A stretch of 64,000 bases of DNA from NCBI GenBank assembly GCA_937889595.1, contig CALAOR010000077.1:124001-188000 (forward strand), in the 5' to 3' direction. The stretch is from an uncultured bacterium. Its GTDB lineage: Bacteria > Oederibacteriota > PGYV01 > Palsa-1178. The notes beneath the pieces are model-generated. The model saw nothing but the letters and a program-made list of their open reading frames with translations, searched no databases and had not been told where the DNA came from. The position numbers were made by a program, and so were the translations under genes. Of this stretch, positions 7,396 to 51,005 are shown in pieces. Positions within the stretch are counted from its first letter, which is position 1. Each line of letters starts with the position of its first letter.

Positions 7396-8412
7396 TTATT
7401 TTGAATTTAAAGCCGGCAGTTCCGGCTGTATTTCCAGGTCCATGGATGACGATACCCCGTTTTTTAAGTACTGCCATCCCGTGTATGCTATCATGGCGCC
7501 GTTATCTGTGCAAAGCTTCATGGACGGAACGTAGAACCTCATATTATTATCCCGGGCGAAACGTTCCAGTTCGCCCTTTAAATGCGCATTTGCGGCCACG
7601 CCGCCCGATATTGCAATGCTTTTTATTTTATACTCTTCATAAATACGCCTCATTTTATTTGATATGGAGCGCACTATGGATTTCTGGAACGCCGCCGCTA
7701 TGTCATTGACCGTGACATCGCCTTTGTCAATGGCCGCCTTGTTCCTCTGTATATAATATAACACGGCTGTTTTGATCCCGCTAAAGGAAAAATCATGGCT
7801 TTTATCCTTCATCTGGGCCTGGGGAAATATGATCTTTGACGAGTCCCCGGTCATAGCGGCTTTTGATATTGCAGGGCCGCCCGGATAAGGCAGCCCGAGC
7901 ATCTTGGCCGCCTTGTCAAAAGCCTCGCCTGCCGCGTCATCCCTGGTGCTTCCTATCAGTTCATAGTCTCCAAATGCGTTTGCCGCATACACATTTGTAT
8001 GCCCGCCGGATATTACAAGGCCCAGGTAAGGGAAAGAAATATCCCGGAACTCAATAAAAGGGCTTAACAGGTGCGCCTCTATATGGTTTACGCCGATTAA
8101 CTTTATTTTCAAGGCAATACTTAATGCTTTTGCATAGGATAATCCGACTATCAGTCCTCCCGCAAGGCCCGGAGCGTACGTAACTGCCACGCCGTCAAGG
8201 ACCTTAAAAGTAATGCCTGCTTTGTCAATGGCTTCTTCCACCACAAGCGGAAGCTTGCTCATGTGTTCCCTGGCCGCGATCTCCGGCACCACTCCGCCGT
8301 AAACGCGGTGGGTCTTTATCTGCGAGAAAATCACGTTTGATAAAACCCTGCCGTTTTTTAAAACAGCAGCTGATGTTTCATCGCAGGATGTTTCGATGCC
8401 GAGGATATACAT
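7396..8412 (-). CDS. tsaD: tRNA N6-threonylcarbamoyladenosine synthase subunit
   Basis: MYILGIETSCDETSAAVL, NHIEAHLLSP, LVISGGHTN, SGGVAANAHL. Confidence 0.97.
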   Translation of the reverse strand: MYILGIETSCDETSAAVLKNGRVLSNVIFSQIKTHRVYGGVVPEIAAREHMSKLPLVVEEAIDKAGITFKVLDGVAVTYAPGLAGGLIVGLSYAKALSIALKIKLIGVNHIEAHLLSPFIEFRDISFPYLGLVISGGHTNVYAANAFGDYELIGSTRDDAAGEAFDKAAKMLGLPYPGGPAISKAAMTGDSSKIIFPQAQMKDKSHDFSFSGIKTAVLYYIQRNKAAIDKGDVTVNDIAAAFQKSIVRSISNKMRRIYEEYKIKSIAISGGVAANAHLKGELERFARDNNMRFYVPSMKLCTDNGAMIAYTGWQYLKNGVSSSMDLEIQPELPALNSK

Positions 8413-20011: not shown

Positions 20012-22480
20012 TTACCGTATTATGAAAATCTTCCCTTTCCTAACCTGCCCGCTGGTCAGATTATTTATTACATAATAATATATCCCCGGCGACACTGTCG
20101 CGCCTTCATTATTCCTTAGATCCCATTTCACTGTTATATCCACGCAGTACATGCTCCTCACTTTTTCCCCGGACAGCGTGTATATGTTCACATTTGAGCC
20201 GGGCGTTATGTTCGTGAATTTCATTTCCCTGACCCGGCCTGATTCACTGAACGGGTTCGGGAAGACCACGGGCACGGCGCCGGGATAAAACGACTGGTTC
20301 GACGTCACGGCCGGGTGCCTGTCAGCAGGCGTGTTATGCACCGGGTCATTATAATCAGCCATGAAAACATTGGTTATCACCCCGTCCGCCGGCATGCTGC
20401 CTATCTTTACAGTGAGCATTATCCTTGCCGTATCACCGGGGTTTAACACGTATGCAGCGGGCAGTTCCCACAGCAGGTAATTCCCGCTTATTGTCAGGTA
20501 CGCGTCGGATCCCGCCGATACGAAACTCACCCAACCGGGTATGGTGTCCCACACCCTGATATTTTCGGCCGGATACGCGTCGTTATTCGTCAGCTCCAGC
20601 GTGTATGTGTATTCCGCCCCAGGCGCCATGTCCTCGCCAATCGCGGTCTTGTGTGCTGTAAGCACGACATCGTAAACAAGCGGCTGGGTGCAGGTTATCG
20701 TCGGCGAATACGTAACCGACGCGCTTTGTGTCGCTGTGAATGTATTCGACATAGCCGCAGTAAACGTCCCGGTCGCGGAGAGCGTGTTCGTACCGGTTTG
20801 TGCGGCTGTTGGCGTGCCTGTATATGTGGGCGTGGCAATATATGTATTTGTCACGCTGTTTACCGCAGTCCATGTATGCGTGGGCGTAACAGTCCTTGTG
20901 TATGTACCGGTGCTTGTTGCGCTGAAAGTCAGCGTTGCTGTATGCGTTGGAGTCACGGTGCAAGTGTTCGTTATTGTCGGCGTTTCCGTGGCCGTATTCA
21001 TGGAGGTTGTGGTTATCGTAGACGTGGCCGAGTATGTGGGCGTGTGTGAATTCGTAGACGTAAAAGTCATTGTATTCGTGGAAGAAGAAGACGGGGAATT
21101 TGTGGCCGTAGGTGTTCTTGTTATTGTAATTGTATTAGTTTGTGATGGTGTTATGGTTAATGTAAAGGTTTTCGTAATTGTATTCGTAATTGTTTTGGTT
21201 GGCGATGCCGTATAAGTAGGCGTTATGGTCGGGGAAACCATGCAAAACACAAATATGCCGTTTCCCTGGTCCGATGTCATGAATAATTTATTTTCCGCAA
21301 CGGCAGGCGAACAAAGGTCAACAGCTTCAGCGCCGTTGTTTGAAGGCAAAGCATATTGCCATTCTATAATTCCGCTTGTTATGTTGATCCCGTAAAGCGT
21401 ATTATTTTGATCGCCGATATATAAATATCCGTTTGCTACGGCAGGCGATGAATACGCGATATTGTTTAAAGTTACTGGAAAATTTGCCGCGCCCGCCCCT
21501 GTTGCCGCGTCCCAGGCATATACTTTATTATCCGACGAACCTATATATACTATACCGTTTGCTATGGCCGGCGATGAATAAATAAAGTTTGCGCTTACAG
21601 AAAAAGCAGATGCCCCATTTACCGCGTTCCAGGCATATAAGTTGTTATCCGACGAACCTATATATACTATACCGTTTGCTATGGCCGGCGACGAAAAAAT
21701 AAAATTGCCTGTACTTGCAGGAAACCCCGCAACAGGACCCCCGGTTGCCGCGTTCCAGGCATATAATTTGTTATCCGACGAACCTACATAAACTATTCCA
21801 TTTGCTACGGCCGGTGATGACATGATAATACCGCCTGTACTTACAGGAAACCCCGCAACAGGAACTCCGGTTGCCGCGTTCCAGGCATATAAGTTATTAT
21901 CATTCGAGCCTGCGTAAACTATCCCATTTACTATGGCCGGTGATGGAAAAACATAATTACCCGTACTTACAGGAAACCCCGCAACAGGAACCCCGGTTGC
22001 CGCGTTCCAGGCATATAAGTTGCCATCCGACGAACCTGCATAAACTATATTATTTGCTACGGCCGGTGATGACTCTAATTGCCCGCCTGCACTCACTGGA
22101 AACCCTGCAATAGGAGCCCCGGTTGCCGTGTCCCAGGCATATAATTTGCCATCCATTGAGCCCACATAAACTATGCCATTTGCTACAACTGGTGACGACT
22201 CTTCCATAACATGTACCCCTGCTCCCCCCCAGTTTACATGAGACCACAGCAGCGCCAGCGGAGGCTTTAACGCCGAAGACGGGTTGTATCTTGTGCCTGT
22301 ATCAACATTTCCCGCCGTACTTATTGTGCCGTGCCTGTCTGCCCAGACATCGGCATGCAAATATGATGAAATACACAGGATATTTGTAAGCAATATGAAA
22401 ATGACAGCGTATATTTTATTGCAAAATCCGTCTTTAAGCAATTCGCCCCCCTTAAAACGGTTCGAAATAATAACCAGCAT
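20012..22480 (-). CDS. secreted PQQ-like beta-propeller protein with Thr-rich linker, DUF11-like domain and C-terminal sorting-like domain
   Basis: Repeats SSPAIANGIVYIGSSDNNLYAWNAATG; T/S/P-rich linker; DVVLTAHKTAIGEDMAPGAEYTYTLELTNND; end VNIYTLSGEKVR...GIYYYVINN...GKIFIIR. Confidence 0.9.
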   Translation of the reverse strand: MLVIISNRFKGGELLKDGFCNKIYAVIFILLTNILCISSYLHADVWADRHGTISTAGNVDTGTRYNPSSALKPPLALLWSHVNWGGAGVHVMEESSPVVANGIVYVGSMDGKLYAWDTATGAPIAGFPVSAGGQLESSPAVANNIVYAGSSDGNLYAWNAATGVPVAGFPVSTGNYVFPSPAIVNGIVYAGSNDNNLYAWNAATGVPVAGFPVSTGGIIMSSPAVANGIVYVGSSDNKLYAWNAATGGPVAGFPASTGNFIFSSPAIANGIVYIGSSDNNLYAWNAVNGASAFSVSANFIYSSPAIANGIVYIGSSDNKVYAWDAATGAGAANFPVTLNNIAYSSPAVANGYLYIGDQNNTLYGINITSGIIEWQYALPSNNGAEAVDLCSPAVAENKLFMTSDQGNGIFVFCMVSPTITPTYTASPTKTITNTITKTFTLTITPSQTNTITITRTPTATNSPSSSSTNTMTFTSTNSHTPTYSATSTITTTSMNTATETPTITNTCTVTPTHTATLTFSATSTGTYTRTVTPTHTWTAVNSVTNTYIATPTYTGTPTAAQTGTNTLSATGTFTAAMSNTFTATQSASVTYSPTITCTQPLVYDVVLTAHKTAIGEDMAPGAEYTYTLELTNNDAYPAENIRVWDTIPGWVSFVSAGSDAYLTISGNYLLWELPAAYVLNPGDTARIMLTVKIGSMPADGVITNVFMADYNDPVHNTPADRHPAVTSNQSFYPGAVPVVFPNPFSESGRVREMKFTNITPGSNVNIYTLSGEKVRSMYCVDITVKWDLRNNEGATVSPGIYYYVINNLTSGQVRKGKIFIIR
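21500..22140. repeat. near-exact ~126 bp intragenic repeats encoding propeller blades
   Basis: caggcata positions 21513, 21630, 21756, 21882, 22008, 22134: spacing 117 then 126 x4. Confidence 0.9.
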
Positions 22481-22600
22481 TAAGTATATCCCCTGATTAT
22501 GGCCTTGTCAATGCCTGTCGCCATATATCACTATTAGATATTACTATTAGTTTGGGGTTCAATAACTTTAAATGGCTTATGGACATTCCGTGGCTGGGTA

Positions 22601-22691
22601 TGGAACAGGCGGAGAATATATCGACATCAAACATAGCTGAGGCGATACAGTACTGGTCATTGGACCGGGATTACTGGAAGGTCGGGGTTTA
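22601..22691 (+). pseudogene. fragment of comM 3' end
   Basis: tggaacaggcggagaatatatcgacatcaaacatagctgaggcg...ggaaggtcggggttta, aligned without gaps to 19867-19957 (comM C-terminus). Confidence 0.93.
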
Positions 22692-22776
22692 GTAGGGGCG
22701 CGACTTGGCGCGCCCGCCTTGCCTTGCATTGCATTGATTTAATGCCCTCGTCGGGCGGGCCGAGTCCCGCCCCTAC
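22692..22776. repeat. BIME-like pair of inverted GTAG-headed REP arms
   Basis: gtaggggcgcgacttggcgcgcccg ... tcgggcgggccgagtcccgcccctac. Confidence 0.8.
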
Positions 22777-22782
22777 AACTAA

Positions 22783-24531
22783 TTACCGTATTATGAAAAT
22801 CTTCCCTTTCCTAACCTGCCCGCTGGTCAGATTATTTATGACATAATAATATATCCCCGGCGACACTGCCGCGCCTTCATTATTCCTTAGATCCCATTTT
22901 ACTGTTATATCCACGCAGTACATGCTCCTCACTCTTTCCCCGGACAGCGTGTATATATTCACATTTGAGTCGGGCGTTATGTTCGTGAATTTCATTTCCC
23001 TGACCCGGCCTGATTCACTGAATGGGTTCGGGAAGACCACAGGCACGGCGCCGGGATAAAACGACTGGTTCGACGTAACAGGCGGGTGCCTGTTAGCCGG
23101 CGTGTTATGCACCGGGTCGTTATAATCAGCCATGAAAACATTGGTTATCACCCCATCCGCCGGCATGCTGCTTATCTTTACCGTGAGCATTATCCTTGCC
23201 GTATCACCGTGGTTTAACACGTATGCCGCAGGAAGTTCCCACAGCAGGTAATTCCCGCTTATTGTCAGATACGCGTCGGATCCCGCCGATACAAAACTCA
23301 CCCAACCGGGTATGGTGTCCCACACCCTGATATTTTCGGCCGGATACGCGTCGTTATTCGTCAGTTCCAGTGTGTAGGTGTATTCCGCTCCAGGCGCTAT
23401 ATCCTCGCCAATAGCGGTCTTGTGTGCTGTAAGCCCGACATCGTAAACAGACGGCTGTGTGCAGGTAATCGTCGGCGAATACGTAGCCGACGCGCCAGGC
23501 GTCGCTGTGAATGTATTTGATATAACCGTATAAGTAGGCGTCATGGTCGGGGAAGCCATACAAAACACAAATATGCCGTTTCCCTGGAACGATGTCATGA
23601 ATAATTTATTTTCCGCAATGGCAGGCGAGCTATAGTCAGCACCTCCTGTAAGGCTGAAGTTTGAAGGTAAAACATATTGCCATTCTATAATTCCGCTTGT
23701 TATGTTGATCCCATTAACCGTATTATTTTGATCGCCGATATATATATATCCGTTTGCTACGGTAGGCGATGACGCGGTAGTATTGCCTGTACTTACAGGA
23801 AACCCCGCAACAGGGATCCCGGTTGACGCGTTCCAAGCATATAAGTTGCCAACATACGAACCTACATAAACTATACCGTTTGCTATGGCCGGCGACGAAT
23901 AACTCCAATAGATAACAGTGCTTGTACTTACAGGAAACCCCGCTACAGGAACTCCGGTTGCCGCGTTCCAGGCATATAAGTTGCCATCATACGAACTTAC
24001 ATAAACTATACCATTTGCTATGGCTGGCGATGACGTGATAATACCGCCTGTACTTACAGGAAACCCCGCAATAGGAACCCCGGTTCCCGCGTTCCAGGCA
24101 TATAAGTTGCCAACATATGAACCTACATAAACTATATTATTTGCTACGGCCGGTGATGACTCAATCCATATCCCGCCTGTACTCACTGGAAACCCTGTAA
24201 TAGGAGCCCCGGTTGCCGTGTCCCAGGCATATAATTTGCCATCCATTGAGCCCACATAAACTATGCCATTTGCTACAACTGGTGACGACTCTTCCATAAC
24301 ATGTACCCCTGCTCCCCCCCAGTTTACATGAGACCACAGCAGCGCCAGCGGAGGCTTTAACGCCGAAGACGGGTTGTATCTTGTGCCTGTATCAACATTT
24401 CCCGCCGTGCTTATTGTGCCGTGCCTGTCTGCCCAGACATCGGCATGCGAATATGATGAAATACACAGGATATTTGCGAGCAACATGAAAATGACAGTGT
24501 ATATTTTATTACAAAATCCGTCTTTATGCAA
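22783..24531 (-). CDS. paralogue of 20012-22480 with fewer blades and a short linker
   Basis: Near-identical N- and C-terminal segments; blade repeats at 23834, 23969, 24095, 24224. Confidence 0.9.
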   Translation of the reverse strand: MHKDGFCNKIYTVIFMLLANILCISSYSHADVWADRHGTISTAGNVDTGTRYNPSSALKPPLALLWSHVNWGGAGVHVMEESSPVVANGIVYVGSMDGKLYAWDTATGAPITGFPVSTGGIWIESSPAVANNIVYVGSYVGNLYAWNAGTGVPIAGFPVSTGGIITSSPAIANGIVYVSSYDGNLYAWNAATGVPVAGFPVSTSTVIYWSYSSPAIANGIVYVGSYVGNLYAWNASTGIPVAGFPVSTGNTTASSPTVANGYIYIGDQNNTVNGINITSGIIEWQYVLPSNFSLTGGADYSSPAIAENKLFMTSFQGNGIFVFCMASPTMTPTYTVISNTFTATPGASATYSPTITCTQPSVYDVGLTAHKTAIGEDIAPGAEYTYTLELTNNDAYPAENIRVWDTIPGWVSFVSAGSDAYLTISGNYLLWELPAAYVLNHGDTARIMLTVKISSMPADGVITNVFMADYNDPVHNTPANRHPPVTSNQSFYPGAVPVVFPNPFSESGRVREMKFTNITPDSNVNIYTLSGERVRSMYCVDITVKWDLRNNEGAAVSPGIYYYVINNLTSGQVRKGKIFIIR

Positions 24532-24672: not shown

Positions 24673-24719
24673 AGTAAAGTCAATTCAAAAGGCATCCTTC
24701 GACAGGCTCAGGATGTCCG

Positions 24720-24953
24720 TCAGGGACTCCGGAGCAGCATATAGCCGAACGACATTTTCCTATATTTTTCAAGTTCTACTTTAAGGAAATCAACGGCACT
24801 GCCGGACATCTTTCTGTAAATACAGTTCCTATCGTCTTCATTTGCGCCAAGCAACTTGACGATCAGGGGATGCACCCCTGCCGTCTCAGCTTTCCTAAGC
24901 CAATCTCCGGCCTCATCCTCGCGCATTTTATGCAGTCTGGTAAGTGCAGCCAT
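24720..24953 (-). CDS. small protein with FliG-like helical motif (possibly 3'-truncated)
   Basis: GVHPLIVKLLGANEDDRNCIYRKMSGSAVDFLKVELEKYRKM resembles the FliG C-terminal pattern LALKGA...R...NMS.RAA..L...L; gggggg before ATG. Confidence 0.6.
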   Translation of the reverse strand: MAALTRLHKMREDEAGDWLRKAETAGVHPLIVKLLGANEDDRNCIYRKMSGSAVDFLKVELEKYRKMSFGYMLLRSP

Positions 24954-25006: not shown

Positions 25007-25420
25007 TTATTCCCTGATAAGCTCTATGAACGCTTCACTGATCATATTCCTGCTTCTTTCTATTATCAGGTCGCGTGCATTCCCTTTTTCCAGTTTATTG
25101 ACCCTTACCTTGACGTGCTCTTTAACCGGCTCATTAAGATTCCGGTAAACAGTCTCTTTTACGGATTTAGACGCGTCAATTAGGGCTATAATCAGGTCAC
25201 TGGTGCTTACCTTCCTGATCATCCTCTGGATAGTGAGGTCGTCAATTTCCGTTATTGTTTCAAAACCAAATATCTGGTCCGGATCGACCATCCTGCGCAG
25301 AACAATCTTTCCGTCCGTTACATCCAGATCAATTTCCTCCCCAAAGTTAACCTGCTTGAGAATTGCCTGCGGAATCCTGATCCCTTTCGAATTGCCGATT
25401 TCAATTACCTGCTGTCTCAT
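25007..25420 (-). CDS. MazE/AbrB-type DNA-binding domain fused to FliG C-terminal-like domain
   Basis: MRQQVIEIGNSKGIRIPQAILKQVNFGEEIDLDVTDGKIVLRR followed by DDLTIQRMIRKVSTSDLIIALIDASKSVKETVYRNLNEPVKEHVKVRV; start MRQQ with GAGG RBS (ORF track extends to 25477). Confidence 0.85.
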   Translation of the reverse strand: MRQQVIEIGNSKGIRIPQAILKQVNFGEEIDLDVTDGKIVLRRMVDPDQIFGFETITEIDDLTIQRMIRKVSTSDLIIALIDASKSVKETVYRNLNEPVKEHVKVRVNKLEKGNARDLIIERSRNMISEAFIELIRE

Positions 25421-25456
25421 GTTGCCCTCCTTAGTTTTTTGTTGCATAAATACTTC

Positions 25457-25486
25457 GTAATTACATAAAGCATACAATGTAATTAC
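25457..25486. promoter_or_regulatory. candidate operator, perfect inverted repeat upstream of the AbrB-FliG-like gene
   Basis: gtaattacat-aaagcataca-atgtaattac, 10 bp arms. Confidence 0.6.
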
Positions 25487-25644
25487 AGATATGTCAAGTG
25501 TTATTTCAGATTATTTTAGCAGTTAAAAACAAGGTCAAAGATTTTTCATTATATTTTTAGCCAATAAAAGTATCTCAGGCGTGCGAAAGATATGATTTGA
25601 TTTAATTAGGAATGAGTTTCAAAAAAATCATTACAAAAGTACGG

Positions 25645-50782: not shown

Positions 50783-51005
50783 TTGTCATTGCGAGCCCTT
50801 CGACAAGCTCAGGGTGGTGAGCCAGTCGAACCAGAGCGAGATCCTCAGCGACGAAAGCCTGCCATGTACCCGAGCAAAGCGTGTGGTTCATGGCAATCTA
50901 TGATCGTGACGCAGAACTTATCGGTGGAACTGAGATTTCCATGAAAGAACTCATGGACTATAGGCTTCGTCGGCATAAAACAAGTGCGCCTTCTCGCAAT
51001 GACAA
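50783..51005. repeat. 223 bp element with perfect 13 bp terminal inverted repeats
   Basis: ttgtcattgcgag ... ctcgcaatgacaa; internal ccttcgacaagctcaggg. Confidence 0.7.

Follow-up and report, generated by a model that had tools for sequence, protein, structure and literature searches.

The window analysed here, a 64,000-nucleotide stretch of a contig from an uncultured bacterium, carries on its minus strand a gene for a 137-amino-acid protein (25007–25420) in which a MazE/AbrB DNA-binding domain is joined to a FliG C-terminal-like domain. Its open reading frame, profile matches and comparison with orthologues establish that this fusion is genuine, and chance resemblance is excluded. Judging from sequence features, the protein is probably a solitary, MazE-derived autorepressor, with the FliG domain likely serving as a protein-protein module. 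The gene allows one to trace how a toxin-antitoxin regulator lost its toxin and acquired an unrelated domain. MazEF relatives still display the ancestral operator, so that its altered spacing can be compared directly with the swap of the C-terminal region.

Domain organization of the fusion protein

The reading frame starts at an ATG at position 25420, preceded by the Shine-Dalgarno sequence AGGAGG (25426–25431, minus strand). Residues 1–45 (25286–25420, minus strand) correspond to the MazE/AbrB swapped-hairpin domain, and residues 46–137 (25010–25285, minus strand) to the FliG C-terminal-like domain, which begins at an MFXF-like hinge (IFGF). The Pfam FliG_C profile PF01706 matches residues 48–130 with an E-value of 1.7e-10, scoring 41.6 bits where 23.3 is required, while the MazE profile PF04014 matches residues 8–45 (E-value 3.4e-5) with 24.1 bits, 0.6 short of its cut-off of 24.7. 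Both profiles match all four orthologues; PF04014 passes its cut-off in genomes G004 and G009 and in the genome-frame reading of G000, and the FliG_C matches reach an E-value of 4e-12. Among the NCBIfam models, fliG (E-value 1e-9) and the MazE model PRK09798 (E-value 3e-4) are found, both far under their full-length cut-offs. A sequence search of the PDB with the fusion protein retrieved FliG C-terminal domains and MazE, and the N-terminal domain is 31–52% identical to the MazE proteins of MazEF loci. The preliminary description of this DNA had proposed both halves from the letters alone, and both assignments stand; the profile searches gave a FliG_C match, with no better match to an unrelated helical family.

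A first AlphaFold model, based on four sequences, was poor (pLDDT 54). The C-terminal domain (residues 44–137) was therefore remodelled from 27 sequences, reaching a pLDDT of 84. Since 21 of the 27 alignment rows are FliG, this structure does not count as separate evidence of homology. Compared to the PDB, its best 16 matches are all FliG, with probability 1.0, although the best E-value is only 5e-3 and the superposed core comprises 61 residues at 1.5–1.6 Å. FliG is the only protein among the credible matches, and the C-terminal half is thus predicted to possess the FliG C-terminal fold.

Promoter, operator and relationship to MazEF

Upstream of all four fusion genes lies a sigma-70 promoter of the form TTGACA-N17-TATRCT, with two palindromic GTAATTAC boxes. 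In the window the −35 element TTGACA spans 25492–25497 (minus strand), and the −10 element TATGCT (TATACT in G004 and G009) spans 25469–25474 (minus strand), with a spacer of 17. The first putative operator box (25479–25486) is located between the −35 and the −10, and is conserved in the four orthologues. The second (25457–25464) covers the expected transcription start, just past the −10. The two boxes are therefore 22 bp apart, centre to centre, with the −10 between them; one copy in G001 has one mismatch. The DNA around the boxes and the promoter is much less conserved across the four genomes. Each of the four genomes contains a single exact pair of GTAATTAC at any gap of 2–32 bp, and in every case this pair lies at the fusion gene; of 20,000 shuffled upstream regions, 5 contained a pair with no more than one mismatch. 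A second operator pair was found neither in the flagellar loci that were read nor in the rest of the genome, and a search for an RNA element near the fusion gene found none. The preliminary description had suggested DNA binding at the upstream palindrome; a conserved site, unique in each genome, now supports this prediction.

For comparison, I used the same profile to gather 29 ordinary MazE genes, both within this phylum and in many other bacteria; MazF was detected nearby for 27 of these. In 20 of the 29 upstream regions (L007, L008, L009, L016, L111, L113, L116, L117, L124, L130, L162–L167, L171–L173 and L175), two GTAATTAC boxes with at most two mismatches are located exactly 11 bp apart. 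Nearly all other spacings have a count of zero, and the mean in shuffled sequences is 0.01. A widespread MazEF clade, present across many bacteria, thus has paired GTAATTAC boxes at 11-bp spacing as its mazE promoter operator. A third box is present in one member, L164, whose boxes fall at 0, 11 and 22 bp. The fusion has thus retained the ancestral MazE half-site, while the distance between its boxes has doubled from 11 to 22 bp, or from one turn of the helix to two.

The fusion and the MazE of MazEF thus have in common the DNA-binding domain, the half-site and an operator on their own promoter. They differ at the C-terminus, where ordinary MazE relatives end in an acidic, tryptophan-containing tail (..W..EW.W), while in the fusion the FliG domain follows immediately on residue 47, in place of this MazF-binding tail. 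They also differ in the toxin: the preliminary description had noted that no MazF-like gene is adjacent, and this extends to the entire genome, as a search with PF02452 (E ≤ 0.1) did not find MazF in any of the four fusion genomes, with positive controls. Autoregulation is the rule for MazE. In E. coli, MazE autorepression is established, and the toxin is bound by the C-terminal part of the protein (PMC4803016).

In the proposed mechanism, the N-terminal swapped-hairpin dimer would recognise the GTAATTAC palindrome, and two such dimers, 22 bp and hence two helical turns apart, would be placed on the same face of the DNA. They would flank the −10 hexamer of the fusion gene's own promoter, and would block RNA polymerase. 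The FliG domain may then link both DNA-bound dimers, replacing MazF as bridge or co-repressor; alternatively, it may bind some other partner, which would relieve repression. What suggests bridging is the widening of the operator spacing, from 11 to 22 bp. The more specific proposal, that a FliG rotor domain was recruited as the oligomerisation clamp of the repressor, in place of MazF between the MazE dimers, and that the operator co-evolved by one additional helical turn, is a tentative one, which I regard as rather doubtful. A repressor whose one exact double site lies at its own promoter would have no evident output, and must therefore have a further function beyond self-control.

The FliG domain outside the flagellar motor

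In flagella, the FliG ring is formed by the N and middle domains, and the C-terminal domain is not ring-forming, which speaks against a bridging role for it in the fusion. The fusion shares with rotor FliG the profile, the helical fold and the MFXF-like hinge at the start of the C-terminal domain, but lacks the N and middle domains, is encoded outside the flagellar operon, and has the FliG_C domain attached to a DNA-binding domain (residues 1–45). R281, D288 and D289 of FliG are of prime importance for stator contact (PMC6079164; PMC11528121), while K264 and R297 are secondary (PMC6079164). I compared the corresponding columns of the fusion to an alignment of FliG from the same and other genomes, transferring the E. 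coli residue numbering via conserved FliG columns, in agreement with the offset in the PDB sequence match. In the fusion, K264 is replaced by I or M, R281 by P, K or Q, D288 by V, T or S, and D289 by R or K, which reverses the charge. These replacements are found in all four orthologues; the R297 column is ambiguous. The loss of the stator-contact residues implies that the domain cannot be a torque element in the known way. A FliG C-terminal domain selected outside the motor, and without the torque residues, bears on the other uses of this fold.

The genuine fliG (332 amino acids), which keeps all the stator-contact residues, is found in a flagellar operon on the same contig, ∼28 kb away and just beyond the window. 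The earlier remark that no flagellar switch genes are adjacent therefore holds for the neighbourhood of the fusion, but not for the contig. A rotor or switch role, also raised in the preliminary description, is not supported, given the lost or charge-reversed stator-contact residues, the missing N and middle domains, and the absence of flagellar genes from the neighbourhood.

It could instead be proposed that the protein senses flagellar assembly, with the FliG domain binding the host FliM, FliG or stator, so that free parts release the repressor. All four host genomes do possess fliG; what favours such a sensor is ancestry alone, the domain being derived from FliG with its fold and hinge kept. 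However, the columns for K264, R281, D288 and D289 are replaced, the operator pair is confined to the fusion promoter, and close relatives that possess fliG lack the fusion; I therefore consider this sensor unlikely. Somewhat less likely still is a global or local regulator acting via single GTAATTAC sites at other promoters. The genome contains 71 single boxes, compared to 44 for a reversed control, but the dinucleotide make-up of this control differs. The only further box within the window, at 2642, lies in apparent coding sequence, and the double site is unique in the genome.

Distribution, gene neighbourhood and related small proteins

Named relatives assign the genome of the window to Candidatus Goldiibacteriota, formerly FCPU426. 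The preliminary description had suggested a search for the same two-domain architecture in related genomes. It is present at full length in the genome of the window and in three further genomes of the same order, at 60–82% identity: the same-genus orthologue is 82% identical, and those from two genomes of another family in the order 60–62%. It was absent from the other genomes, about 380, in a search of 384 genomes spread across bacteria; these gave half-matches only (MazE alone or FliG alone). A pattern scan covering 85,000 species, which detects close relatives only, returned the same three relatives and no others. At the search sensitivity used, the architecture thus appears to be confined to this lineage. 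MazE matches with long open frames in other genomes proved to be ordinary MazE. An origin from a phage or plasmid was also considered and rejected, as no full-length relative is present in phage records, plasmid records or viral contigs. No paper naming FliG with AbrB was found in the literature searched; nor was any description of MazE joined to FliG_C, of the missing toxin or of the wider operator spacing. Both families are already known.

In the within-genus pairs, dN/dS is 0.05–0.09 overall and low for each domain separately, and both domains are under purifying selection within genera; between families, dS has reached saturation. Three kinds of gene neighbourhood are represented among the four fusion loci, with the fusion as the only common gene; it is therefore solitary, with no operon partner that is constant across the loci.

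A small FliG_C-like reading frame of 77 amino acids is located 53 bp downstream of the fusion in the window (24720–24953, minus strand; FliG_C 15.9 bits, below cut-off). Over 71 amino acids it is 44% identical to a stand-alone FliG_C-like protein encoded elsewhere in the genome, and it has no counterpart beside the other three orthologues. It may be a co-transcribed partner or a decaying paralogue. The short repeat TTCGACAGGCTCAGGATG occurs twice in the window (24698–24715 and 50799–50816); its first copy lies just past the stop of this reading frame, and may have truncated it.

This downstream frame could also be read as a toxin. The fusion would then be the antitoxin to an unrecognised toxin other than MazF, possibly this small FliG-like neighbour protein, as its MazE ancestry and predicted toxin-antitoxin-like autoregulation might suggest. 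However, the downstream frame is missing from three of the four loci, no neighbour gene recurs across the three kinds of locus, and the MazF-binding tail is gone; this reading is therefore improbable, slightly more so than regulation through single boxes. An accidental gene fusion or decaying, functionless pseudogene would fit the narrow distribution, but is highly implausible given the low dN/dS in two genera and an intact gene in four genomes of two families, and the conservation of both gene and operator refutes a functionless pseudogene.

Other small FliG_C-like proteins are encoded in this phylum, with stand-alone ones in the window's own genus. Like the fusion, the stand-alone proteins of G000 (C60) and G001 (C69) consist of a single FliG_C-like domain without rotor parts, but they possess no DNA-binding domain and are conserved beside an ABC-F gene. 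Stand-alone, rotor-domain-free proteins of about 86–98 amino acids are likewise encoded at L043 (3343–3639) and L044 (minus strand, near 7870–8150), adjoining an ABC-F ATPase gene, an arrangement conserved in two genomes. In the tree, the FliG domain of the fusion groups with the stand-alone proteins (support 92/87 to 95/88), but long branches make this grouping insecure, and the topology test does not reject the phylum's own FliG as its source (p-AU 0.096).

Small FliG_C-related proteins of 163–180 amino acids, with a charged, coiled-coil-like N-terminus, are found in other families of the phylum (L100, 2949–3440; L101, 2473–2967; L102, 2607–3149). Tandem genes in G015 (L106, 1195–2766 and 2763–4919), with the same pair in G035, each encode a FliG_C domain preceded by a seemingly membrane-associated, perhaps FliF-like region. 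At L109 (1828–3297), an otherwise different, repeat-like protein of 489 amino acids gives a FliG_C match of 19.6 bits, below cut-off. Finally, the region at 20012–24531 of the window encodes a tandem pair of PQQ/BamB-like beta-propeller proteins that closely resemble each other and have a C-terminal region in common, one of which (20012–22480) also contains a long Thr/Pro-rich repeat tract.
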